64,000 nt of DNA from Acetobacter orientalis (lineage in GTDB: Bacteria > Pseudomonadota > Alphaproteobacteria > Acetobacterales > Acetobacteraceae), in the NCBI RefSeq assembly GCF_000963965.1, contig NZ_BAMX01000022.1, positions 1 through 64,000 of the forward strand, given 5' to 3'. The position numbers were made by a program, and so were the translations under genes. How positions within the stretch are numbered: position 1 is the first letter of the stretch; each line of letters starts with the position of its first letter. The notes beneath the pieces were generated by a model. It ran no database searches. It was not told the origin of the DNA and saw only the letters and a list, made by a program, of their open reading frames with translations. This document shows, piece after piece, positions 33,629 to 63,963 of the stretch.

Positions 33629-33657
33629 TTGACATCAATTAGGCGGCCCCATAAAAA
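33629..33657 (+). promoter_or_regulatory. Sigma70-type promoter for the btu operon
   Basis: TTGACA at 33629-33634 is separated by exactly 17 bp from TAAAAA at 33652-33657. The start of transcription would fall within about 10 bp of the riboswitch 5' end. No other good promoter is seen nearby. Confidence 0.65.
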
Positions 33658-33660
33658 TAG

Positions 33661-33870
33661 CGGTAACGGTTCTCTTTGCGTAAGAGAGATTAAAAGGGAA
33701 CGAAGTGCGAGTGGTAACCCCCATTCAAGGCTTCGGCTGTCCCCGCAACTGTAAGTGGTATGTTTTTGCTCTACTGACTATCTTGTTCAGGCCACTGGGG
33801 GTGCAAACTTCTGGGAAGGTGAGGCAAAAAATTTGAGCCACAAGCCAGGAGACCTGCCGTTATATGTGGT
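33661..33870 (+). ncRNA. Cobalamin (vitamin B12) riboswitch
   Basis: A class of RNA that senses adenosyl- or methylcobalamin. Diagnostic parts appear in order: GGTTCTC...GAGA helix, AAAAGGGAA (33692-33700), the GTGCGAGTGGTAACCCCC junction, CGGCTGTCCCCGCAACTGTAA, and the B12 box AGCCAGGAGACCTGCC (33843-33858). A spacer of about 125 nt leads to the receptor gene; within it a TCTCG/CGAGA stem near 33954-33983 could form the regulatory platform. It should reduce btuB-F-C-D expression when cobalamin is plentiful. Confidence 0.95.
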
Positions 33871-33994
33871 TGCAACCGGGAACTGTTGGGCGGGGTGTCC
33901 TGATGGTGTGTGGTGTTATGCATAAGCTTTAAATGGCTGTGCGTAATGGCGCGCTCTCGTGGCAACGGTAAAGTAACCGCGAGATTGCCCCCTT

Positions 33995-52778: not shown

Positions 52779-55001
52779 TCAGGGGTGTGGTGGTGCGGCA
52801 GGTGGGTTTGCTTGCTCAGCGTAGCTGAGTAAACTTTCTATGCCGGGCACAATAGAGTTTATGAGGTCTGCTGCAGGTTGAGGCGTGTTTGTGACAACCT
52901 TGGTTGTGGCAGAGGCAGCTCTTTCGCTTTGTGCTTGGCCCAAAGTGGCTTTGGCGCTTTCTAGCCAGCTTTGCGATGGCACCTTATTGAGGGCAGCCAG
53001 GCCAATTTGGGCCAACGCCTTTAATTGGTGAGAGGTAGGAAGGGCAGGTGTTAAAGCCGGGTGTTTGCTGGCAGCGGTAACAAAAGCCGCATCGTTAGCA
53101 GCCCATTGTGTCAGGTATGCCATCAGGCTTGCCTTTAAATTGGTTTGCCCGTTTACAAAGGCTGCCGCTTGTTGGTTGAACCGTTCAGCCTCAAAACTAT
53201 CGGGGCTGGCAATATCTGCTAATTCGGTCAGGTTTTGTTCTGTTGCGGTTACCTTGTGGCGAATTTGTAAAAATTCATGATTATGGGCGTAGTTGCGCAC
53301 GGGTGCTGTTGCGCTGAGCAATGTGCGGGCCGCTTCTGTCTCTCCCGGCGCAAGGCGGCTGAGCATGCGGTTTGTATTGGCGCGGCTTTCTAGCCCTAAA
53401 AGTTCTAGTTTATCCTGCATGATGGCAAGGCGAGGGTAGAGTGTAGTGGGGTCACACATGCTACCGGGCGACCAGAAGCGCTCAGCTAAGGCCGCTGCTC
53501 TGGGCCATAAGCGGGCATCAAGCATTTCTTCAGAGACAATTTCTGTCCATAAAGCTCCTTCTGTCCCTAAAACAAGGTGTGTTTGTGCCTCAGAAAGGGG
53601 GGCAGTCGGTGCATCTACCTGCGTAATGAGTGTACCACCGGGTCCGGTGGTTTGCGCTGTGGCAGCCGCTTCGGCTCTGGTGGCGGCCGTGTTTTCTAGC
53701 GGGTCTTGCGCGTAATAGTCTGACGCTGCGCGGAGTTTATCAAGGTAATAACCGTCAGAAACGATAACAGGGTGGCCTGCTGCGGTGGCTGTTGCGGTAT
53801 GCGCCGCGCCGCGCCAGACTTCTACCACTGTGTTGTTTGGGAGGTCTGCTGCGGCAATTTCGTCCCACCCAATAATGGTTTTGTGGTGCTGCGCCAGACT
53901 GGCGGCAACGCGGCGGGTAAAATTGGCTTGTAGGTCGGCCGGTGTTTTAATGTGGTGGGCCTGCATGTAAGCCTGAATAGGGGCAGAGCCTGTCCATTGT
54001 TTGGCAACCACTTCATCTCCGCCAATATGAAAATAAGCATCTGGGAAGAGTGCTGCCATTTCGCCATATAAAGCAGTAACAAAACGATAAGTGGCAGGGT
54101 TGGTCGGGTCTAGGGCTGCACGGTTTTTTTCGGCTCTGTCTTGCATGTTAAGCGGAGCTTGGGCAGCATAGCGGGGGTAGGCTTCAAGCAAAGCAAAGGT
54201 ATGGCCGGGTGTGTCGAACTCGGGCACAATACGAATGCCCCGCTGTGCAGCATAGGTTATAAGAAAGCGGATTTGTTTTTGAGTATAATATTGCCCGTGT
54301 GAAGCAATGCTTTGTAAACGCGGGAAAAGGTGGCTTTCTACACGAAAACCCTGACCATCTGATAAATGTAAATGCAGAACATTAAATTTTACCATTTCCA
54401 TGGCGTCTATCTGCCGCATAAGGGCTGCAAGCGACATAAAGTGGCGGCTAACATCAACCATTAAGCCGCGCCATTTAAACCGAGGCGTATCGTCTATAAA
54501 AGCATGGCGAATTTGCGCGGTGTTGGTGTGTCGTTCAACCAGTTGCAAGGCAGATGAAAAACCTCGGACAATACCAAACGGATTTTCGGCTGTAAGAATA
54601 AGGTTTTTGTCTGTAATTTGTAGGCTATAATCCTCTTGTGTGTTTATATTTGGCAGTGCCGTGCCAGCTGTTTTACTATTTAGGGTAACCGTAAATTCAG
54701 TCTTTTTCTGTGTTGAGGGTATAAAGTTTATTCTTTGGCCTGAAAGTTTTTCTAAACGGATGCGAAACCGTTCAAGGGCTTGCTCAAGAAAAGAATTTTT
54801 CTGCCCCACCCATTGCACAGCGATAGTCTGTGGCAGCTGTGATGCACCAGATAGAGCGTGCAGGGTAGAGGGGACAGGCATAATGACCGGTGCCGTTATG
54901 CTCTCTGCCGCACAAGCTCTGTTATGCACAATAGGCGCAGAACCAAAGCCTATGGTTACAGCAAAACAAGCAAACGGTAGCGAAAAAGCACGTTGTGGCA
55001 T
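52779..55001 (-). CDS. GH20 beta-N-acetylhexosaminidase
   Basis: Periplasmic or secreted glycosidase of 740 residues. A signal peptide (residues 1-32) is followed by an N-terminal GH20b domain and the TIM barrel from FKWRGLMVDVSRHFMS (about residue 175). The catalytic pair Asp329-Glu330 lies in FHIGGDEV, typical of substrate-assisted GH20 enzymes. LHLHLSDGQGFR and EFDTPGHT are further marks. The last 200 residues are Ala/Gln-rich helices of no known function. It removes terminal N-acetylglucosamine or N-acetylgalactosamine. It lies convergent to the glycan genes. Confidence 0.9.
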   Translation of the reverse strand: MPQRAFSLPFACFAVTIGFGSAPIVHNRACAAESITAPVIMPVPSTLHALSGASQLPQTIAVQWVGQKNSFLEQALERFRIRLEKLSGQRINFIPSTQKKTEFTVTLNSKTAGTALPNINTQEDYSLQITDKNLILTAENPFGIVRGFSSALQLVERHTNTAQIRHAFIDDTPRFKWRGLMVDVSRHFMSLAALMRQIDAMEMVKFNVLHLHLSDGQGFRVESHLFPRLQSIASHGQYYTQKQIRFLITYAAQRGIRIVPEFDTPGHTFALLEAYPRYAAQAPLNMQDRAEKNRAALDPTNPATYRFVTALYGEMAALFPDAYFHIGGDEVVAKQWTGSAPIQAYMQAHHIKTPADLQANFTRRVAASLAQHHKTIIGWDEIAAADLPNNTVVEVWRGAAHTATATAAGHPVIVSDGYYLDKLRAASDYYAQDPLENTAATRAEAAATAQTTGPGGTLITQVDAPTAPLSEAQTHLVLGTEGALWTEIVSEEMLDARLWPRAAALAERFWSPGSMCDPTTLYPRLAIMQDKLELLGLESRANTNRMLSRLAPGETEAARTLLSATAPVRNYAHNHEFLQIRHKVTATEQNLTELADIASPDSFEAERFNQQAAAFVNGQTNLKASLMAYLTQWAANDAAFVTAASKHPALTPALPTSHQLKALAQIGLAALNKVPSQSWLESAKATLGQAQSERAASATTKVVTNTPQPAADLINSIVPGIESLLSYAEQANPPAAPPHP

Positions 55002-55333: not shown

Positions 55334-56074
55334 TTAATTTTTATAGTCTGGTTGCTCGCGGTCTAGTTTGCGGCGGAGTGCGCTCCAGATCATGCGACCT
55401 TGGTCGGGGTCTTCATCAAACTGTTTTTTAGTGCGCAGTATTTTTTCTTCAGAGGGAATATGGAGCGGTGTGCCTGTGGATTGCGCGGCAATCTGGATAC
55501 GGCATGACTGCTCTAGGTAATACATGCGGTAAAATGCGCGGGCTACGGTTTCGCCTACCGTTAGTAAGCCGTGGTTTTGCAAAATAAGTGCGCTGTTAGT
55601 GCCAAGGTCTTTGACCAAGCGTTCACGCTCGCTCAGGTTGTCATCTGCGGCAATGCCTTCATAACGGTGAAAGCCAACAGAACCATAGAACTCAATATTC
55701 ATTTGGTTGAGGGGGAGAATATTGGTTTCTTGTGCCGCAATAACCATGCCGGGTACGGTATGGGTGTGCATAACGCAGGCTGCGTCTGGCCTGCTACGGT
55801 GTACGGCTGAGTGTATAACAAACCCAGCCGGGTTAACTGGCCAAGAGGTTTCTTGTTTTGGTAGGCCGTTTGCATCAACCACCACTAAAGAGCTGGCGGT
55901 AATTTCTTCAAACAAAAGACCGTAGGGGTTGACCAAAAAGCGGTGGTCTTCGCCGGGTATGCGCACAGACAGATGAGTGTAGACCAGGTCTGTCATGTTA
56001 AAATGTGCCATAAGGCGATATGCTGCGGCTAGGTCTTCGCGCAGTGCTTGTTCGGTTTGTGTTGTATTAACCAT
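55334..56074 (-). CDS. Class II aldolase/adducin-family protein
   Basis: Protein of about 246 residues with the class II aldolase fold. Zinc ligands His104 and His106 (VMHTHT) and His169 (QNHGLL), numbered from the first Met, are present. The catalytic Glu of fuculose-phosphate aldolase (SSEWRFH) is replaced: the aligned stretch reads NPAGFVIH, so retro-aldol chemistry is doubtful and a decarboxylase, epimerase or other lyase role is possible. AAAGAGAAAT lies before the two ATG codons (56077, 56074). It is the last gene of the operon, 8-11 bp after the oxygenase. Confidence 0.85.
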   Translation of the reverse strand: MVNTTQTEQALREDLAAAYRLMAHFNMTDLVYTHLSVRIPGEDHRFLVNPYGLLFEEITASSLVVVDANGLPKQETSWPVNPAGFVIHSAVHRSRPDAACVMHTHTVPGMVIAAQETNILPLNQMNIEFYGSVGFHRYEGIAADDNLSERERLVKDLGTNSALILQNHGLLTVGETVARAFYRMYYLEQSCRIQIAAQSTGTPLHIPSEEKILRTKKQFDEDPDQGRMIWSALRRKLDREQPDYKN

Positions 56075-56085
56075 CATATTTCTCT

Positions 56086-57126
56086 TTATTCGGCAGATGT
56101 TTTTGTTTTGTGCAGGTGGCCAAATGTAGCAGTTTTACGCGCCCCTTGGGGGAGCGAAATTTCACCTGCAGCAACGCGCCGTGTCAGGTATTGGTAGGTT
56201 TGGAGAGCTTGCGCCCACATATGCTCGCCAATTGTAATGGTTTCATACTCTTGGCTACCGCTTTCAAAAGCGGGTAGAGGGCGAATTTGAGTGTGGTAGT
56301 CGCAGGCGTAAAAAAGTGGGAAAGAGTAGCGTTCTTCTTTAACGCTGCGCACACGGTGTGCTGTGGCCACAAAAGCGCCTGCGGTCATAACCTCAAGCAT
56401 GTCCCCAATATTGACCACAAAAGCGCCGGGAATAGGCGGGGCGTCTATCCAGTCACCATGACCGTTCATTACCTCAAGGCCCGGTTGGTCTGCTAACAAA
56501 ATGGTAAAACATTCATAGTCTGTGTGGGCACCAATGCCCGGCGCATCTTGGGCTTCTGCATCGTAGGGGTAATGGATCATACGCAGTTTTGATGGGGGGA
56601 AATTGGCGTGATCGTCAAAATAGGTTTCTGGTAGTCCCAGAGCGAGGGCAAAGCCTTGAAACAACGTGCGGCCTAGCGCAAAAACGGCTTTGTAATAAGT
56701 TTGTGCGGCTTCTTTAAAGCCGGGTACGGTTGGCCAGTTGTTGGGGCCAAGCAAAGGGGTTTTGGCAACCACTAGAGGGTTGTCTGCGGGCACTTCAAAG
56801 CCAATATCAAAGGCTTCTTTATGGTCGGGTTTGCCGCTGCCGTAGACTTCCTCTCCCTCTGGCACAAAGCCTTTATGGGTGGCAGAGGTGCCAATGTAAT
56901 AGTTCATTTTATAATCGAAAGGTTGTGCAAAAAATGCTTTAGCGGCATCGCGCACAGCCTGAATTGTTTCTGCCGGAACATGGTGGCCAGAAATATAGAG
57001 AAAGCCAACATTGCGTGCAGCATGGCCAAGCTCTTCTGCCACGGCCATACGGTCTTGCACGTTAGCGCTGTATAGGCCTGCAATATTAACGACAGGAATA
57101 GAGGTAAAAGTTTCAGTCTCTGTCAT
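56086..57126 (-). CDS. 2-oxoglutarate/Fe(II) oxygenase, IPNS-like family
   Basis: Non-haem iron oxygenase of 346 residues. Fe ligands His201, Asp203 (HTDYE) and His257 (TAHRV) and the 2-oxoglutarate-binding Arg266-x-Ser268 ([11 protein letters not shown]) are all in place. The N-terminal DIOX_N domain has IPVVNIAGL and [12 protein letters not shown]. It could hydroxylate, desaturate or cleave the imported compound. It starts 19 bp after the isomerase gene and is followed at 8-11 bp by the aldolase-like gene. Confidence 0.9.
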
Positions 57127-57145
57127 GGCACTTTGTCCGGTTGGC

Positions 57146-57991
57146 TTATTGAGGGAAGAGTGTTTGAAAGCGCGTCTGCTCCGTTTGGCCTATCCATGTG
57201 TTCATTTCCCACAGGTCTGCCACGGGGGCATTGGTAAAGGGGAGAGTATGAACATACCCATCTGGCCCACATTCTGGCGTAAGGGTGCTGAGCGTATAGC
57301 CACGTGCTTTTTGGGCGTGCCATACTTGCTCCCAAACCTGTTGGTGGAATTGCCGCGCCGCGGCATGCTCTGGCGCGGTAGGATGGGGTATTTGTGGGCC
57401 TTGATCATAGCCTATGCGGGCTTGGATATGGTGCACGCGCTCAAAAAAAGCAGAAAAATCATCTGCTGGGTCGTTGAGTAGGCGTTCACAGCAAACAACC
57501 CAATGGCTTATGTCGAGTGTAAACAAGACCTCTTGGGGGAGTTGCGGTAAAACATCGAGTGTAACCCATGGGTTTGCCAAAATGCGGGAGCGGTGTGTTT
57601 CAAACACGCACAATATGCCCGCCTCCTGCCCTATAGCATGGGCCTGAGTAATAAAGTCTGCCTGTTGGGCAGCGCTCCAGCGGTCATTACCCCCCAGCAC
57701 ATTAATAAAGCGTGGTGCCATAAGGGCTGCACGCTCTACTATAGCGCGTAGGTCGTTTAGGTGGCTCTCAAGGGTAGCATCTTGTTTTGGCACAACGCCG
57801 CCGCCTGTCATGGCAATGCCAATGTAGGGCATAGTGGCCTGCTGGAGCAGGTGGGCTTGGTGTTGGGCCTCGGCGTTTGTTGCGGGTATGCGGGCTTCAA
57901 GCCCGGTAAAACCGGCGGTTTTTACCTCTTCTATGGCATGGTGCCATGGGCGGGTATCGCCCCAGAGTGTTTTAAAAACTTCTAGACGCAT
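57146..57991 (-). CDS. Xylose-isomerase-like TIM-barrel protein
   Basis: Sugar phosphate isomerase/epimerase-type TIM barrel of 281 residues (AP endonuclease 2 fold). The metal-site pattern is visible: [24 protein letters not shown] and TPECGPDGY give Glu, Asp, His and Glu. The opening [36 protein letters not shown] is family-like. No signal peptide, so cytoplasmic. It lies 58 bp after the TonB-dependent receptor and 19 bp before the oxygenase. The substrate is unknown. Confidence 0.85.
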
Positions 57992-58049
57992 AATTTTGCT
58001 CTCAGAAGATAAGCTGTGCTGCGTTTAGGCAGCAACACAGCTTTTAGGC

Positions 58050-60368
58050 TTAGAAGTTGTAGCGCAGGTCTACACCAATCCAGCGTGGTGTTTGCAAATA
58101 CTGCGCACGGCTGTTGTCGCTGCCGGTAAAGGAGTACGTATTGCCGTGGTTGTTGAGCATGTTGTCTACATACACAGCAGCCGTCCATTTGCTGGTTTTA
58201 GGTGCAAACTCCATACGTAGCCCCATGGAACTAATTTTGTTGGTTTGGCCGTTGGGGTCACCCAAGGCAACCAGCATATTGTCTTTCCATGTATAGCTGG
58301 CTTGTAGGGTCAAACGGTACCGGTTGATGTCTATGCCATAACGAGCCACGGCACTCCATGAAAAGCGCGGTGCAAATGGCAGGGCAGAATGCGCATCAAC
58401 ATTTGAGAGAAGAGGCAGGCCGCCAATGTTGTTAACGGCAGAAATGGCGCGGGCATCAAGGTAGGCGAAAGACCCGCGTAGGTCGAGGTTGGGAATTAAA
58501 TCGTGAATAGCTGACGACAACTCACCACCGCGTGTTCTGGCACGAGAAATTGAGCCGAGGCTGAGAGAGGTAATGTCTCCTGGCATTTCTGCAACAAAAA
58601 GGGTTTGTCTGTTATGGTATTCATAATCAAACAAAGAGCCCTCAACCGTAAGTTTGTTTTTAAACAGGCTGGATTTTACACCAACTTCATAAGCAATCAG
58701 GTTTTCTGGGCGCACATAGTCCAACGCCTGCGGTGCAGAAACGGGTGCCGCAAAATAAGTGCCAGCTTTATACCCGTTTGAAATGGTACCATACAGATAG
58801 GTGCCCGGTACAACTTGGTAGCGTAAGCCTACACGGCCCGTAAAACGCTCATAATTATGGCTGGTATTGAGGTAAGACAGGTTGCTACCAGCAGGGCTGC
58901 CAAGCACACCATTATCGTTACGAGTGCCACCATGAAAACCACGTTCATCGTAAGAGAAACGGCCGGAGGCAATAAAGTCTAGGTTGTGCGTAATATTGGT
59001 AACTGTATTAACGTACACACCAGTTGAAAGGTTTTGCTGACTGAAATGGTCAGTCAGGTTTGCTTCGGGTCGGTCAAACAGGAAGCCACGGTAACTGGTG
59101 TAAGCACCGTCAATCTTGTCATAAGATTCGTAAATACCCACTGTTAAATGGAATATTTTGGCAATATTAGTACGCAGGTGCATGTCGTGTGACTGTGCCA
59201 GATAGGTGTCGTTCCAGTGGTAGTCGCCTACCTGCACAGACTCACCATCGTAGTTGTCGTAAACGCTGCGGCGATACATATCGATTGCAGTTTGCGAGCT
59301 AAACACACCAAAGTTGAATACGCGCTCGAAAGAAAGCGATGCACCACCACCATCTTCTTTGCGGCCAACGCGGTCTTGGCCAACATTTACTTGGTTAAAG
59401 CGTGCATTTGGGCCAACACCAATGGTACCAGTGGGGGTGCCGTTAACCGCATCACCATCGACATCCTGCGGAGACATAGGCGTGCCACGGTCACGGGTGT
59501 AATGGATATTGAGCAAAGCTGAGCTTTTATCGTCAATCTGGAATTTGGTCAGGTTTCTGATAGCCAGCAAATCTTGCGCGCCATAGCGGCGGTTGGTGTT
59601 AATATCGTGCTGCCAGCCATCGCCTTTAGTGTAGCTAAAGGCAGTGCGGTTTGAAATTTTGCTTGTAATGGGCACGTTAATGGCAAATTTGCCGGTGTTT
59701 GTATTGTAGCTACCATAACCCCATTCAGCATAACCGCCAAATTTGTCAGAAGGTTTGACAGAGGTAATATTAACGCTACCGCCCGTGGTGCTGCGGCCCA
59801 TGTCAAAACCCTGCGGGCCTTTTTCTACCACAACGTTTTCAATATCGAGCATTTGGCCGTTGTAAAGCGCAGGGTACGGGGCAAACACGCCGTCAAGGTA
59901 AATGCCAATACCGCCCATGTTGGTGCCAACATAGTCGTCTAGCCCAACGCCACGAATAGAGAAAATGGGAGAACTGCCAGAGGTTGCATTGACTGCGGTT
60001 ACACCGGGGGTGAAGGCCGCAATTTCTTTGGGGCTTTCAACGTGGAGTTCACGCAGTTCTTTCCCGCTCATAATATTGACTGTACCGGGCTGGGACAGGT
60101 AGCGGGCTGTGCGGGTTGTCACAACCTGAATATCTTCGGGTGATGTGCTTTTGTGCGGGCCACGGGCCTTACGGCGTGCAACAGGCGTTGCTGCCTTGGC
60201 GGGCTTTGCATGCACACTACTGGTGACATGGGGGGCTGGTTGCGCGCCTACAGCGGCGAGCGCGGGCAGGGCAGACGTGGTGCCCAACAGCAAAGCTGTG
60301 AGTGCCAGTTTGCGGCGGGTAGCCTGCTGGCGGGCTTTGGAGAAAGAGAACCGGGAGGGGAATGTCAT
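58050..60368 (-). CDS. TonB-dependent receptor of the catabolic operon
   Basis: Outer-membrane receptor of 772 residues. It has a long basic signal peptide (cleavage near PALA/AVG), a linker, a plug (VVTTRTARYLSQPGTVNIMSGKELRELHVESPKEIAAFTPGV; PIFSIRGVGLDDYVG; VVEKGPQGFDMGRSTTGGSVNITSVKP) and a barrel ending RYNF. It is not of the siderophore subgroup. The ATG overlaps the stop of a 39-codon leader frame (ATGA), and AAGGA lies 8 nt before it. It heads the isomerase-oxygenase-aldolase operon, so it likely imports the compound those enzymes handle. Confidence 0.88.
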   Translation of the reverse strand: MTFPSRFSFSKARQQATRRKLALTALLLGTTSALPALAAVGAQPAPHVTSSVHAKPAKAATPVARRKARGPHKSTSPEDIQVVTTRTARYLSQPGTVNIMSGKELRELHVESPKEIAAFTPGVTAVNATSGSSPIFSIRGVGLDDYVGTNMGGIGIYLDGVFAPYPALYNGQMLDIENVVVEKGPQGFDMGRSTTGGSVNITSVKPSDKFGGYAEWGYGSYNTNTGKFAINVPITSKISNRTAFSYTKGDGWQHDINTNRRYGAQDLLAIRNLTKFQIDDKSSALLNIHYTRDRGTPMSPQDVDGDAVNGTPTGTIGVGPNARFNQVNVGQDRVGRKEDGGGASLSFERVFNFGVFSSQTAIDMYRRSVYDNYDGESVQVGDYHWNDTYLAQSHDMHLRTNIAKIFHLTVGIYESYDKIDGAYTSYRGFLFDRPEANLTDHFSQQNLSTGVYVNTVTNITHNLDFIASGRFSYDERGFHGGTRNDNGVLGSPAGSNLSYLNTSHNYERFTGRVGLRYQVVPGTYLYGTISNGYKAGTYFAAPVSAPQALDYVRPENLIAYEVGVKSSLFKNKLTVEGSLFDYEYHNRQTLFVAEMPGDITSLSLGSISRARTRGGELSSAIHDLIPNLDLRGSFAYLDARAISAVNNIGGLPLLSNVDAHSALPFAPRFSWSAVARYGIDINRYRLTLQASYTWKDNMLVALGDPNGQTNKISSMGLRMEFAPKTSKWTAAVYVDNMLNNHGNTYSFTGSDNSRAQYLQTPRWIGVDLRYNF

Positions 60369-60484
60369 GCCTGCATTCCTTGCGCTAGGACGTGTAGGGA
60401 AAAGGTGGAGGCATGCGGTGCCAGCATGGGCGACAGGGCAGCCAAAGTCGCTTTAAGTGGTAGAAAGGAAAAACGGGCGGTCAT
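60365..60484 (-). CDS. 39-codon leader ORF overlapping the TonB receptor start
   Basis: A short frame from ATG 60484 to TGA 60365 encodes 39 residues: basic/hydrophobic MTARFSFLPLKATLAALS... with several Ala and Pro. An excellent ribosome site, AAGGGG, lies 6 nt before its ATG, and its stop overlaps the receptor ATG by 4 bp (ATGA). The arrangement is that of a translated leader peptide coupled to the receptor. It resembles a short signal sequence. I found no Cys-, Trp- or His-rich run that would mark amino-acid attenuation. Confidence 0.55.
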   Translation of the reverse strand: MTARFSFLPLKATLAALSPMLAPHASTFSLHVLAQGMQA

Positions 60485-60615
60485 CAGATCCCCTTGGTTG
60501 CTGGGGTGGGAACGGCCACCCGGGTAACGACTTCATTGCAAATTAATAACGAAGTTATGGGTCGTTTCGTTTGGAATGTTGTAAATCTTACTTTTGTACC
60601 CGCTCGTGTTTGGTC

Positions 60616-61395
60616 TCAGTAACGGATCATCTGGTTCAAGAAATTTTGTGCACGCTCTGTTTGTGGTGCGGTAAAAAATTGCTCAGGTGGTGTTATTTCA
60701 AGAATGCGCCCTTGATCCATAAAAACAATTTTATCTGCAATACGGCGGCTAAAAGCCATTTCATGGGTAACGCATAGGGTGGTTATGCCTTGCTCAGCCA
60801 AAGTGTCCATAATGCTAACCACGCCGGTTATGGCTTCTGGGTCTAGGGCTGCGGTTGGTTCGTCAAACAGCATAACTTCGGGTTGCATACACAGGGCACG
60901 GGCTATCGCAACACGTTGTTGCTGCCCACCAGAAAGTTGAATGGGGTATTTATGAGCCTGCTCTGGTATGCCCACTTGTTTGAGAAAATTATGGGCCATT
61001 TCTTGCGCGTCTTTGCGGGCAACATTACGCACAAGCTGAGGAGCCAATGTGCAGTTATCCAGCACGCTAAGATGTGGAAAGAGGTTATAGTTTTGAAAAA
61101 CCATACCCACCATACAGCGTAGTTCTGTAAGGCTTGTTTTTTCGTTAATAATTTTTCCGTCTATTATAATGCTCCCGCTATCGTGCGGTTCTATGCGGTT
61201 AAACGTACGAATAAGCGTTGATTTGCCAGACCCCGAAGGGCCAAGCACTACAATTTTTTCACCGCGTTGCACGTCAAAATTGAGGCGGTCGAGTGCAACA
61301 AACTCTCCGTAGAGTTTGCTCATATTGTGCACTGCAATCATGGGGGGGTGCTGTGCAGGCTGTGGGCTACCGTGGGGGAGAGGGTTAGGCTGCAT
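60616..61395 (-). CDS. Amino-acid-type ABC transporter ATPase
   Basis: ATPase of about 259 residues of the polar amino acid uptake family (GlnQ/HisP type). Walker A GPSGSGKST, Q-loop (VFQNYNLFPHLSVLDN), signature LSGGQQQRVAIARAL, Walker B VMLFDEPTAALDPE and switch region CVTHEMAF are intact. Start at ATG 61395 overlaps the permease stop by 11 bp; ATG 61341 is an alternative start nearer the conserved core. It powers the fused transporter encoded just upstream. Confidence 0.92.
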   Translation of the reverse strand: MQPNPLPHGSPQPAQHPPMIAVHNMSKLYGEFVALDRLNFDVQRGEKIVVLGPSGSGKSTLIRTFNRIEPHDSGSIIIDGKIINEKTSLTELRCMVGMVFQNYNLFPHLSVLDNCTLAPQLVRNVARKDAQEMAHNFLKQVGIPEQAHKYPIQLSGGQQQRVAIARALCMQPEVMLFDEPTAALDPEAITGVVSIMDTLAEQGITTLCVTHEMAFSRRIADKIVFMDQGRILEITPPEQFFTAPQTERAQNFLNQMIRY

Positions 61396-62989
61396 TGGCT
61401 GTTGCTTTCTTACGGTCGGCCCATGAAAAACGGCGTTCAACACGTTTTTGTAAAAATAGAAAAAAGAACACCATTGCCAAATAATAAACCAAGGCAGCGG
61501 CGTAATATTCTGTAAACTCGAACGTACGTGCGACCTGCACCTGTGTAATAGCCAGCAGCTCCTGCAAGGAAATGACAGAGGCGAGCGAGGTCGTTTTTAA
61601 CAGGCTAATAAACTCGTTAATGGTTGGTGGCAGAGCAATGCGTAAAGCCTGCGGAAAAATAACGTAGCGGTAAACCTGTTTGCGCTTCATGCCTAAGGCA
61701 TCGGCTGCGAGTTCTTGCCCACCATCAACTGCGCTTAGGGCTGCTCGGTTAATTTCAACCTGATAGGCGGATTCATTAATAGAGAGTGCGACAAGTGTGG
61801 CGAGAAATGGTGTGAACCATTGCTCTCTAAAAATAGGAAAAAACTGGGGCAAAGCATTCCAAATAAACAAAAGCTGCAACAGTGTGGGCGCCCCACGGAA
61901 AATGGATACATATGCTTTAAGCACCCATTTAAGCGCAGAATTTTTGTGGCTGTTTAAGGCAACAGCCATAGGAATAGAGATAAGAATAGCAATAAAATGA
62001 GAGAGAAGGGCAACCCCAAGCGTAAGTGCTGCCCCTTTCAAAAAGGCTGCCGAAAAAAGCGCAGAGAAGAAAGACTGCCAGTTAAACCCACCACTGCTTT
62101 CATCTGCCGTTAGGGCTTGTTCAGCCTGCGAGGAGAGAGACCATTTTTGGCGCAGTTTTGCGAGTGTTCCGTCTTGTTCTAGCTCTGCTATGGTTTGGGA
62201 CAATAAGGCACGGTCTTGCTTATTTTTGCGCAAATAGGCCGCAAAATGGCGGTAGTCTTGGTAGTCGGGTTTAAGGATAATGCGTACTTTACCGTGTAAC
62301 TGTTTTTGGCGGTAATACAGCTCTACATCTTGGCTAACAAACGCAAATACCCGGCCAATAAGCACCTGCTGTACCACTTGGTCTTCTGTTGGGTATTGCT
62401 GCACAAGAATAGGGGCTTTACCTGCGGCGGCCAGGCTTACATTTTCACGCTCTATGCGGGCTGCGTAGCTTGTGCCTGCTTGCACGGCAATGGTTTTGCC
62501 AGACAGTTCGGCCATGCTTTTAATGGGGGGGGTATTGGCGCGCGCTACAACGGTTAACGCTGTTTCTTGGTAGGCTACTGCGTCAAAATTCTTTTCTCTG
62601 TCTGCTAATTGTATAATGCCGCTTATAACCAACCCACAACGTTGCGCGGCAAGGCTCGGGAAAAGCCCTGTAAAGTCCATTGTTATTAAAGACAAAGACG
62701 CATGCCACCGTTGTGCAAGTGCGCGCACAACGTCAATATCCATACCTTCTGGCTTGCTGGCGTCTGAGCCTTGAATAAAGGTCATGGGGGGGAGGGTCGG
62801 GTTTGTGCATACGGTTAATGTGCCGTCTTGTACAAAAGAGGGCACAGTCTCCGAGCTGCTTTGGGCACGGCCCATGGTAGGCGTGCTGAGTGCCAGCCCG
62901 GTGCCAAGCAGCCCAATAAGTAAGGCAGAGGCCCACTTATTTGGCTTACAAACCTTGTTTTTTGCAGCAAAAAAAGAAAGAGCAGCCAT
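61385..62989 (-). CDS. Fused substrate-binding protein and permease of an amino-acid-type ABC importer
   Basis: Protein of 534 residues with two domains normally made separately. Residues about 1-45 are a signal/anchor; 50-285 are a periplasmic binding protein of the polar amino acid family (GTLTVCTNPTLPPMTFIQG, MDIDVVRALAQRW, GKTIAVQAGTSYAARIE, LYYRQKQLHG). About 305-525 is a HisM/GlnP-type permease (FLKGAALTLGVALLSHF, YVSIFRGAPTLLQLLFIWNALP, the EAA region ELAADALGMKRKQVYRYVIFPQALRIALPP). The substrate may be an amino acid, opine, or sulfur amino acid derivative. It begins with a one-base overlap of the LysR stop (TAATG). Confidence 0.9.
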   Translation of the reverse strand: MAALSFFAAKNKVCKPNKWASALLIGLLGTGLALSTPTMGRAQSSSETVPSFVQDGTLTVCTNPTLPPMTFIQGSDASKPEGMDIDVVRALAQRWHASLSLITMDFTGLFPSLAAQRCGLVISGIIQLADREKNFDAVAYQETALTVVARANTPPIKSMAELSGKTIAVQAGTSYAARIERENVSLAAAGKAPILVQQYPTEDQVVQQVLIGRVFAFVSQDVELYYRQKQLHGKVRIILKPDYQDYRHFAAYLRKNKQDRALLSQTIAELEQDGTLAKLRQKWSLSSQAEQALTADESSGGFNWQSFFSALFSAAFLKGAALTLGVALLSHFIAILISIPMAVALNSHKNSALKWVLKAYVSIFRGAPTLLQLLFIWNALPQFFPIFREQWFTPFLATLVALSINESAYQVEINRAALSAVDGGQELAADALGMKRKQVYRYVIFPQALRIALPPTINEFISLLKTTSLASVISLQELLAITQVQVARTFEFTEYYAAALVYYLAMVFFFLFLQKRVERRFSWADRKKATANAA

Positions 62990-63963
62990 TAGTATGAGTC
63001 TTCCAACAAGGCGCGAAACGTCTCAACCATGAGTTCTGTTTCGGGAGATGTGCGCGCTAAAAAATGACAGCAGGTGATAAGTTGTAAATTATTGAAGTTG
63101 ATGTGCCGGAGCAGCCCGCGGTCAACTAAAGGTTTTGCAAAGGCTTCGGGTAGAAAACCAATGAAGTTGCCAGACAAAATAAGCAGAGCACGGGCATCAA
63201 CATTTTCAGCCGCCGCTCTAAACGACAGGTGTTTTCTTATTTCGTCCCATTGGGGAGATGTCGCGGCTTCAGAGACCGCAATCATGCGTTGAGCGGCCAA
63301 AACGTCTAATGTTATGGTCTCTTCCGGCACGGAGTAAAGGGCGTTACGCGCACCACAATAAAGATTGAGGGCTTCAGACACCAAAGGGATGCCCTGCATG
63401 CCGGGCATATTTTGTGGGTATAGTGCAATGCCTGCTGTGGCTTGGCCGGTGGTTACGGCAACCTCTACCTCCCGCGTGTTGGCCGAATGGACGGTCATGA
63501 ACACATTTGGGTGGTGGCTGGTAAAGGTTTCTATGGCCCGTATAAGGGGTGTTTCGCCATGTGTTTGCAGGTTGTCTGGTACGTAAAGGCGGAAGGTGCC
63601 AGACAAAATGCCACTTATCTGGTTAATGCGCTGCTGAAAATGCTGAATATTTTGCAAAAGCCCTAACGTGGCCTCCAGCACAGATTGCCCTTCGCTGGTG
63701 AGAGAAAACCCACTTCTGCCGCGTTTACACAGTTTAAGGCCCAAGCGTGTTTCAAGGGCTGAAATATCAAGACTGATAGAAGACTTGCTTTTACCCAAAG
63801 CAATTTCAGCCGCAGCAAAACCGCCTTGTGCAGCAACAGTATGAAAAACACGGAGCAGGCGCAAATCAACTTCAGAAACCTGACCGCTAAAACCACTTGA
63901 GCGCCGCGCTGTGGCTTTGCGCTGTGGGGTGGGGGCTGTTAGGGGCTTGGCTGATCTTTTCAT
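62989..63963 (-). CDS. LysR-family regulator of the transport/catabolic locus
   Basis: LysR-type regulator of 324 residues. A basic N-terminal tail of about 30 residues precedes the helix-turn-helix (DLRLLRVFHTVAAQGGFAAAEIALGKSKSSISLDISALETRLG), then the linker and effector domain. It is read in the same direction as the transporter and its stop overlaps the permease-fusion start by one base. This is unlike the usual divergent LysR layout, so it may be self-regulated with the operon. Its own promoter lies at the right edge of the window or beyond. Confidence 0.88.
   Translation of the reverse strand: MKRSAKPLTAPTPQRKATARRSSGFSGQVSEVDLRLLRVFHTVAAQGGFAAAEIALGKSKSSISLDISALETRLGLKLCKRGRSGFSLTSEGQSVLEATLGLLQNIQHFQQRINQISGILSGTFRLYVPDNLQTHGETPLIRAIETFTSHHPNVFMTVHSANTREVEVAVTTGQATAGIALYPQNMPGMQGIPLVSEALNLYCGARNALYSVPEETITLDVLAAQRMIAVSEAATSPQWDEIRKHLSFRAAAENVDARALLILSGNFIGFLPEAFAKPLVDRGLLRHINFNNLQLITCCHFLARTSPETELMVETFRALLEDSY

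Follow-up and report, generated by a model that had tools for sequence, protein, structure and literature searches.

A set of ten genes in Acetobacter orientalis probably serves to import and degrade an arginine-related guanidino carboxylic acid. Seven of these genes lie at 55334-63963 of a 64,000-nucleotide stretch (positions 1 to 64,000 of contig NZ_BAMX01000022.1, hereafter the window), and the system extends past the window end, where three more genes are present on the opposite strand of the same contig. We consider it highly probable that the substrate class is a guanidino acid that passes at the level of 4-guanidinobutyrate. The more specific reading that we prefer, with slightly less than even confidence, is that the imported compound lacks a free alpha-amino group and is most likely N-alkylated (N-methylated), for example the 2-oxo acid of a methylarginine. 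Three of the proteins are abbreviated here as OXY (the 2-oxoglutarate [2OG] oxygenase), TIM (the TIM barrel) and ALD (the class II aldolase-like protein), and ADI denotes the arginine deiminase family; the features, including one open reading frame (ORF) that is not counted as a gene, are as follows.

62989..63963, minus strand: LysR-type regulator (PF00126/PF03466), conserved in position and divergent from the ADI, GhrA and M20 genes past the window end
61385..62989, minus strand: SBP_bac_3 binding protein fused to a PAAT-type permease, BPD_transp_1 (PF00497 and PF00528)
60616..61443, minus strand: PAAT-type ABC ATPase, GlnQ-like (PF00005, 130.6 bits)
60369..60615, minus strand: intergenic region in which a ten-locus alignment shows a conserved block of non-coding sequence (CAAACGAA...TTCGTTAT), a possible second promoter or operator
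60365..60484, minus strand: ORF of 39 amino acids (aa) labelled a 'leader', with a 4-bp overlap with the TonB gene start; probably not a gene
58050..60368, minus strand: TonB-dependent outer-membrane receptor (PF00593/PF07715)
57146..57991, minus strand: TIM, a metal enzyme with an AP_endonuc_2 TIM barrel; candidate N-(hydroxyalkyl)guanidine lyase
56086..57126, minus strand: OXY, an Fe(II)/2OG oxygenase (PF14226/PF03171, DIOX_N/2OG-FeII_Oxy)
55334..56077, minus strand: ALD, a class II aldolase/adducin protein that lacks the catalytic Glu; candidate 3-His iron oxidative decarboxylase
contig 64380-65252, other strand: ADI-family deiminase (PF02274, 88.8 bits)
contig 65277-66218, other strand: GhrA-type D-2-hydroxyacid dehydrogenase (229.5 bits against a GhrA cutoff of 403)
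contig 66255-67508, other strand: M20 amidohydrolase (best model 'allantoate amidohydrolase', 602 bits against a cutoff of 452)

The three genes past the window end carry much of the meaning of the system. The catalytic residues of the deiminase (E130, D133, H181 and C277), which define the ADI/DDAH superfamily, are invariant in all ten rows aligned (8 loci), and its scores fall below the curated cut-offs both for arginine deiminase (73.2 against 414 bits) and for dimethylargininase (55.2 against 300 bits). By these cut-offs it is a divergent member of the ADI family and not arginine deiminase or dimethylargininase proper. Beyond the M20 gene there are genes for a carbon-nitrogen hydrolase, a TetR-like protein, a permease-like protein and a dihydropyrimidinase-like amidohydrolase (L072 4619-9354, contig 68619-73354), and a second M20 gene is located at L072 15878-17182; these genes, the naming of which is partly our own reading, may form a pyrimidine or hydantoin cluster.

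The cluster is not a chance assembly. Thirty Acetobacteraceae genomes carry an orthologous oxygenase (71-100% identity), and 29 of these loci were inspected, the other (G035) being a 4-kb piece. The exact gene order of the window is present in 16 of the 29, its own included. Four loci are rearranged, with the GhrA and ALD genes beside the TonB gene and ADI absent, and two (L038 and L040) have no TonB gene between the ATPase and TIM genes and carry a 50%-identical TonB gene past ALD; the remainder either have no ALD nearby (four loci), have TIM and OXY alone (two loci) or lie on a short contig (one locus). The M20 gene adjoins the GhrA gene in 11 of the 13 far-side flanks fetched. Outside this family, a core of TIM, OXY and a PAAT-type importer recurs in Pseudomonas, Klebsiella, Acinetobacter, Marinomonas, Vibrio and Burkholderiales. 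Partner genes within 9 kb of TIM were counted at 127 loci, selected through their matches to OXY or TIM; these loci are not independent, including duplicates such as L065/L158, L073/L160, L104/L188 and those of K. pneumoniae, and some end short of 9 kb. All three core components are found together at 114 of the 127 loci, and the core stands alone at 35, of which 34 are in Pseudomonas. The first-pass annotation of the window, made from its sequence alone, had proposed an undescribed uptake-and-catabolism system, to be abandoned if its two halves never co-occurred elsewhere. The proposal stands, and the refutation fails because the three components recur together so commonly. No published description of this gene set was found in the open-licence PubMed Central literature.

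There are several features that point to a guanidino acid. First, the ADI-family deiminase and a ureohydrolase occur one or the other: near TIM, 40 loci have the ureohydrolase alone, 25 have ADI alone, 62 have neither, and none has both. In the whole genomes of the 30 Acetobacteraceae, with presence set at E <= 1e-30, 22 encode ADI and no ureohydrolase and eight encode a ureohydrolase and no ADI, with none having both and none neither; the A. orientalis genome itself (G000) has no ureohydrolase match at this threshold. This distribution points to a guanidino acid at the 4-guanidinobutyrate level, and the earlier guess that the system handles a nitrogen compound is both borne out and narrowed. 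For the sulfur compound that had been guessed as an alternative, no sign was noticed, although no test was aimed at it. Second, the M20 gene is found at 17 of the 25 loci with ADI and at no locus without it. Third, the Klebsiella operon opens with a ureohydrolase gene, the product of which scores 495 bits with guanidinobutyrase (3nio), 291 bits with guanidinopropionase and 198 bits with agmatinase, and that of P. toyotomiensis scores 660 bits with 3nio. Guanidine hydrolase (7esr) was rejected as the identity of the Klebsiella enzyme on its far lower score (136 bits), and creatine was dropped as a substrate because this ureohydrolase is of the guanidinobutyrase type. Fourth, a 5-guanidino-2-oxopentanoate decarboxylase is encoded at 13 loci in Pseudomonas and related bacteria, at three of which there is also an aldehyde dehydrogenase; the Pseudomonas enzyme scores 850 bits with the corresponding model, PRK07524, well over the cutoff of 500. 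Finally, a second operon with a paralogous LysR gene, a binding protein gene and a ureohydrolase gene, and with neither TIM nor OXY, adjoins the system in Raoultella, Klebsiella and Enterobacter (L095, L096, L098 and L100), and a similar neighbouring operon without the binding protein gene is present at L099. This second operon next door is another guanidino-acid setting.

OXY and TIM can be compared with the enzymes of methylguanidine demethylation. MgdH and MgdL are described, in an excerpt of PMC12508155, as the methylguanidine hydroxylase and its partner lyase in Vreelandella boliviensis. The comparison was made through MgdL-partnered paralogues in Acetobacteraceae and through published positions. 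OXY keeps the facial triad and the 2OG-binding Arg of Fe(II)/2OG oxygenases that membership with MgdH demands; H201, D203, H257 and R266 (the HxD motif, the second His and the 2OG Arg) are invariant in all 97 rows, the window being counted twice. Some of the same Acetobacteraceae genomes encode paralogous oxygenases, 51-53% identical to that of the window, whose neighbours are proteins of 266-295 aa that share the Asp-x-Arg pair with MgdL; among the five such neighbours read, the pair is at D49/R51 in three, as in the published excerpt (PMC12508155), and at 57/59 and 62/64 in the other two. MgdL-like matches are present at eight loci, all with this other oxygenase type and none with TIM. The loci at which an oxygenase has such a neighbour (L057, L059, L060, L061, L062, L070, L056 and L035), in several Acetobacteraceae and in other bacteria, are probable methylguanidine users.

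An OXY tree separates the two kinds of oxygenase. Five Acetobacteraceae MgdL-partnered rows form one clade (support 97) and the TIM-partnered rows form another (support 87 with L033 and 99 without it), with the plasmid row L035 and L090 being long branches that are not placed. Six OXY positions read FQTLTF in the MgdL-partnered type and YKDMAY in 30 of 31 importer-partnered rows (YKTMAY in the other); the window has YKDMAY. These positions were picked with L033, L054, L056, L060 and L090 held out, and among the held-out rows the first four fit at 6 of 6 positions and L090 at 4 of 6. L033, from Paraburkholderia, has the FQTLTF signature, although its partner is TIM, and its TIM and OXY genes lie upstream of UAAP1/UAAP2 (which we take to be CgdAB), a gene annotated as urea carboxylase, and AtzF, with two guanidine-I riboswitches and one guanidine-II riboswitch. 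TIM likewise falls into two types, at positions picked using all rows: VQNRQ in 117 rows (and IQNRQ in one), and YRCAH in nine. The YRCAH type accompanies OXY and guanidine carboxylase genes at L033, a desaturase-type protein and guanidine carboxylase genes at L182 and L187, a desaturase-type protein at L091, L092, L184, L185 and L186, and OXY and a guanidine-type binding protein at L090. Across the 127 loci OXY and the desaturase-type protein are never found together (119 and 7 alone, and one locus with neither).

A methylguanidine-type oxygenase can therefore pair with either MgdL or TIM, and a YRCAH-type TIM with either OXY or a desaturase. The simple reading is that TIM does the job of MgdL. 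The importer-partnered type is further marked by K180 in OXY and R104 in TIM, two residues that would suit a carboxylate. The fold of TIM is that of sugar isomerase/epimerase TIM barrels, with fold neighbours that are mostly isomerases and epimerases and best rows that are nearly tied; no curated subfamily model matched it at E <= 0.001, and its profile gave a single weak match among PDB sequences, to Art22 (E 2.4e-4). At the TIM loci where no OXY was found (L182, L184-L187, L091 and L092) the neighbour is a fatty-acid-desaturase-type protein, and a metallo-beta-lactamase-fold protein recurs at TIM loci of the guanidine-carboxylase/desaturase kind (L033 8330-9112, L182 11578-12360, L185 and L186).

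The importer contributes the evidence on the alpha-amino group. Its permease matches HEQRo_perm_3TM (70.5 bits, cutoff 42.2), and its ATPase scores 272 bits with the GlnQ model, under the cutoff of 379. In the binding domains the Arg and Ser/Thr with which amino-acid binders hold the carboxylate are kept. The Asp that contacts the alpha-ammonium group, its position presumed from Gln- and Lys/Arg/Orn-binding proteins, has been replaced in each of the ten binding proteins aligned with two references, two of the ten being ureohydrolase-linked proteins without OXY. The loss of this Asp together with retention of the carboxylate Arg suggests that the ligand has no free alpha-amino group.

ALD belongs to a family named for aldolases, matching NF005451 with 334 bits (cutoff 207). 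Its scores are 219 bits with the uncharacterised 3ocr, 92 with NovR, 91 with TqaM, and 48-50 with E. coli FucA chains. The first-pass annotation correctly recognised the missing catalytic Glu: E. coli FucA Glu73 corresponds to Gly85 in all 47 rows (the window and Kozakia being counted twice), and in the same rows the metal-binding H104, H106 and H169 are all kept. ALD thus has the three His without Glu73 that NovR, TqaM and pyruvic oxime dioxygenase (POD) have in common, and it lacks the residue that marks FucA-type aldolases; a true class II aldolase was rejected because Gly replaces the catalytic Glu in every row. In the published excerpts, NovR/CloR carry out O2-dependent oxidative decarboxylation of keto and hydroxy acids (PMC13111500), TqaM the oxidative decarboxylation of a 2R-hydroxy acid (PMC11880133), and POD is a third Fe(II) enzyme of the class II aldolase family without Glu73 (PMC5216522). 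ALD is probably better read as a 3-His iron oxygenase akin to these three enzymes, with which it shares the fold, the metal ligands and the lost Glu, although their substrates differ from the one proposed here. The earlier description of TIM and ALD as two carbonyl-chemistry enzymes is accordingly probably wrong, TIM being better regarded as the lyase partner of OXY.

The partner counts connect ALD with the dehydrogenase. ALD and a 2-hydroxyacid dehydrogenase are both present at 50 loci, with 14 having ALD alone, two the dehydrogenase alone, and 61 neither. An AruI-type decarboxylase and the 2-hydroxyacid dehydrogenase are never found together (13 and 52 alone, 62 neither), and ALD accompanies the AruI-type decarboxylase at five loci. 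By analogy with NovR and TqaM, the D-2-hydroxyacid dehydrogenase and ALD could convert 2-ketoarginine to 4-guanidinobutyrate.

We propose the following order of events. The TonB receptor and the PAAT importer would take up the guanidino acid, as their families indicate. By analogy with MgdH and MgdL, OXY would hydroxylate the carbon on the guanidino nitrogen and TIM would cleave the resulting carbinolamine to 2-ketoarginine and an aldehyde. The GhrA-type dehydrogenase would then yield the D-2-hydroxy acid, which ALD, acting as an Fe(II)/O2 oxidative decarboxylase, would convert to 4-guanidinobutyrate, one carbon shorter. Lastly, the deiminase and the M20 enzyme would strip the guanidino carbon stepwise to give 4-aminobutyrate (GABA), in place of the guanidinobutyrase; the one-or-the-other distribution of these genes is observed, and the chemistry is predicted.

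Several points limit this proposal. First, the independent replacement events are few. On an OXY tree of the 30 genomes the ADI/ureohydrolase pattern corresponds to three changes, two of them forced by well-supported branches; a wider tree offers two changes and 2 to 3 independent pairs, which puts kinship-corrected significance out of reach. Second, the best ureohydrolases of the eight genomes lacking ADI are only 44-51% identical to that of Klebsiella and are encoded away from the locus, and their substrate is therefore uncertain. Third, ureohydrolases are present too in some relatives that do not have the system. Finally, adducin, which is not known to be an enzyme, likewise lacks Glu73.

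Other readings of the same genes must also be weighed. The one that survives best, though we regard it as unlikely, is an opine-type entry, in which OXY attacks an N-alpha-substituted arginine of the octopine or nopaline kind at its alpha carbon and the hydroxylation releases 2-ketoarginine directly, with the later steps unchanged. It would account for the importer being of the PAAT type, for the loss of the alpha-ammonium Asp, and for a 2-ketoarginine decarboxylase without a transaminase (none came to notice among the co-directional genes, where no systematic search was made). However, it leaves the presence of the OXY and TIM families at guanidine carboxylase loci unexplained, and the list of 13 solved chains that match the Klebsiella binding protein at E <= 1e-15 contains no opine-binding chain.

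Quite unlikely, in our estimation, is the release of guanidine, with OXY hydroxylating the carbon adjoining the guanidino group of arginine or homoarginine, in the manner of the ethylene-forming enzyme (EFE) or homoarginine-6-hydroxylase, and TIM freeing guanidine. In its favor are the family resemblance of OXY to EFE and the fact that TIM, in Paraburkholderia and elsewhere, has guanidine carboxylase genes and riboswitches as neighbours. The likeness to EFE and homoarginine-6-hydroxylase is at the level of overall similarity, and 9ovh is an ancestral reconstruction and not a natural enzyme. In P. savastanoi EFE, the arginine-binding residues are E84 and R316. Many PAAT-type loci, however, carry a guanidinobutyrase or a deiminase that would be needless on such a route. 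A guanidine carboxylase was flagged at one of 115 PAAT-type loci (L169, a single weak 42% partial match, and one of four such flags among the TIM loci). No guanidine riboswitch was found at gathering score in the window, in L072 or at the Klebsiella locus, and cgdAB, guanidine carboxylase and AtzF gave no tblastn match in L071 or L072; free guanidine was rejected as the product of the window's system for want of both the riboswitch and the carboxylase. The nearest natural solved structure to OXY is P. aeruginosa PaIPNS (6JYV, 185 bits), of another subfamily, for which P5C (pyrroline-5-carboxylate) from arginine was undetectable according to an excerpt of PMC12329707, where its function is given as unknown.

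It is similarly unlikely that the system performs alpha-oxidation of omega-guanidino acids, whereby OXY would alpha-hydroxylate, for example, 5-guanidinovalerate, TIM would epimerise the product, and the dehydrogenase and ALD would shorten the chain. This would give TIM an isomerase-type chemistry matching most of its fold neighbours, and would provide a use for the pair of ureohydrolases that Hydrogenophaga and Raoultella encode within the locus or close to it, but neither the kinship of OXY with MgdL-partnered oxygenases nor the guanidine carboxylase contexts would be accounted for. Least likely of all is a non-guanidino substrate, such as a sugar acid or amino-sugar conjugate handled by true isomerase and aldolase chemistry next to an unrelated deiminase or ureohydrolase pathway, which has in its favor the fold of TIM and the family names of ALD and GhrA, and against it the one-or-the-other distribution of ADI and ureohydrolase, the Gly that stands for the aldolase Glu in every ALD row, and the lack of a kinase in the set. 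An OtnK-type tetronate pathway, which had already been discounted in the first-pass annotation, is similarly rejected, as there is no kinase among the seven window genes and the three further genes, and an OtnC-type decarboxylase model gave 35.9 bits against a cutoff of 250.

The proposed breakdown of an N-alkylated guanidino acid departs from known systems in several respects. It resembles methylguanidine demethylation by MgdH/MgdL (as given in the excerpt of PMC12508155) in having a 2OG oxygenase beside a dedicated partner protein, but the partner is a TIM barrel with no adjacent MgdL-type lyase, import is through PAAT and TonB components, the signature differs, and neither a guanidine riboswitch nor a guanidine carboxylase was detected in the window. 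The guanidine carboxylase pathway (CgdAB, guanidine carboxylase and AtzF) is related through the sister type of TIM that stands beside such genes at L033, L182 and L187, but its genes were not found at the window's locus. The arginine transaminase/4-guanidinobutyrate route of Pseudomonas consists of AruI, an aldehyde dehydrogenase and GbuA. Several sister loci carry an AruI-type decarboxylase and a GbuA-type ureohydrolase; the Acetobacteraceae, in contrast, have the deiminase and M20 enzyme, a dehydrogenase and a putative iron oxygenase that would act in place of the decarboxylase, and no transaminase that was noticed.

The TonB receptor is found with TIM at 30 of the 127 loci, all in Acetobacteraceae, and was seen only in that family's form of the system. 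TIM is present in 9 of 398 Pseudomonadota genomes and, within the class of G225, in 8 of 369; of 289 sampled genomes from the window's own class, only that of A. orientalis itself has it. In the OXY tree the Acetobacteraceae rows nest within Pseudomonas rows with moderate support, and this nesting, together with the distribution of TIM among the sampled genomes, suggests a gammaproteobacterial donor for the core in acetic acid bacteria. Among named genomes, the best 80 of 534 relatives include Klebsiella, Raoultella, Acinetobacter baylyi, Marinomonas, Vibrio and many Pseudomonas, as well as Herbaspirillum, Hydrogenophaga and two Acetobacter. A Klebsiella plasmid record (L034) contains a copy of the Klebsiella operon that matches in split frames only, and a 5.37-Mb Klebsiella record labelled as a plasmid (CP125156.1, L031) is probably a mislabelled chromosome.

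As to the layout of the window genes, the earlier description of eight genes and a leader ORF on one strand was right in families, order and strand, and the count is seven genes plus the 39-aa ORF. A positional counterpart of this ORF is present in three of nine relatives (L036, L037 and L039), with poorly conserved peptides, and in none of the other six; for these reasons it is not counted as a gene, and a leader peptide was rejected because the peptide is not conserved. The genes are separated by 8 bp (OXY-ALD), 19 bp (TIM-OXY), 58 bp (TonB-TIM) and 247 bp (ATPase-TonB), and the genes further upstream overlap. The largest gap had given rise to the idea of two transcripts, and the conserved non-coding block that a ten-locus alignment reveals in it makes a separate TonB-TIM-OXY-ALD transcript plausible; the block fits a second promoter, but a consensus promoter scan of the gap gave no excess over expectation. 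An operator common to the ADI-LysR and TonB gaps was rejected, the only shared word among 11 gaps searched being AACGAA, in L037 and L039. A GH20 beta-hexosaminidase-like gene of an unrelated family adjoins ALD (window 52779-55001, minus strand), and there is a cobalamin riboswitch at 33650-33875 (plus strand, 115 bits).

We offer tentatively, as a doubtful possibility that is less secure than the nature of the substrate, that guanidino acids derived from arginine and N-methylated or otherwise N-alkylated are degraded by a widespread pathway not yet described, of which these genes are an example. It would have recruited a methylguanidine-demethylase module and would include enzymes in three new roles: TIM as an N-(hydroxyalkyl)guanidine lyase with a TIM-barrel fold, an iron oxygenase of class II aldolase fold replacing the 2-ketoarginine decarboxylase, and a deiminase-carbamoylase pair replacing guanidinobutyrase. 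The apparent replacement of a ureohydrolase by a deiminase and an M20 enzyme is open to tests in laboratory strains. If the pathway is as proposed, the OXY-TIM-importer core of many Pseudomonas, Klebsiella, Raoultella, Acinetobacter baylyi and acetic acid bacteria would gain a function, and the newly found guanidine N-demethylases would have a second, unrelated lyase partner. If a methylarginine derivative is indeed the substrate, these bacteria would be recycling a compound released on the breakdown of arginine-methylated proteins.

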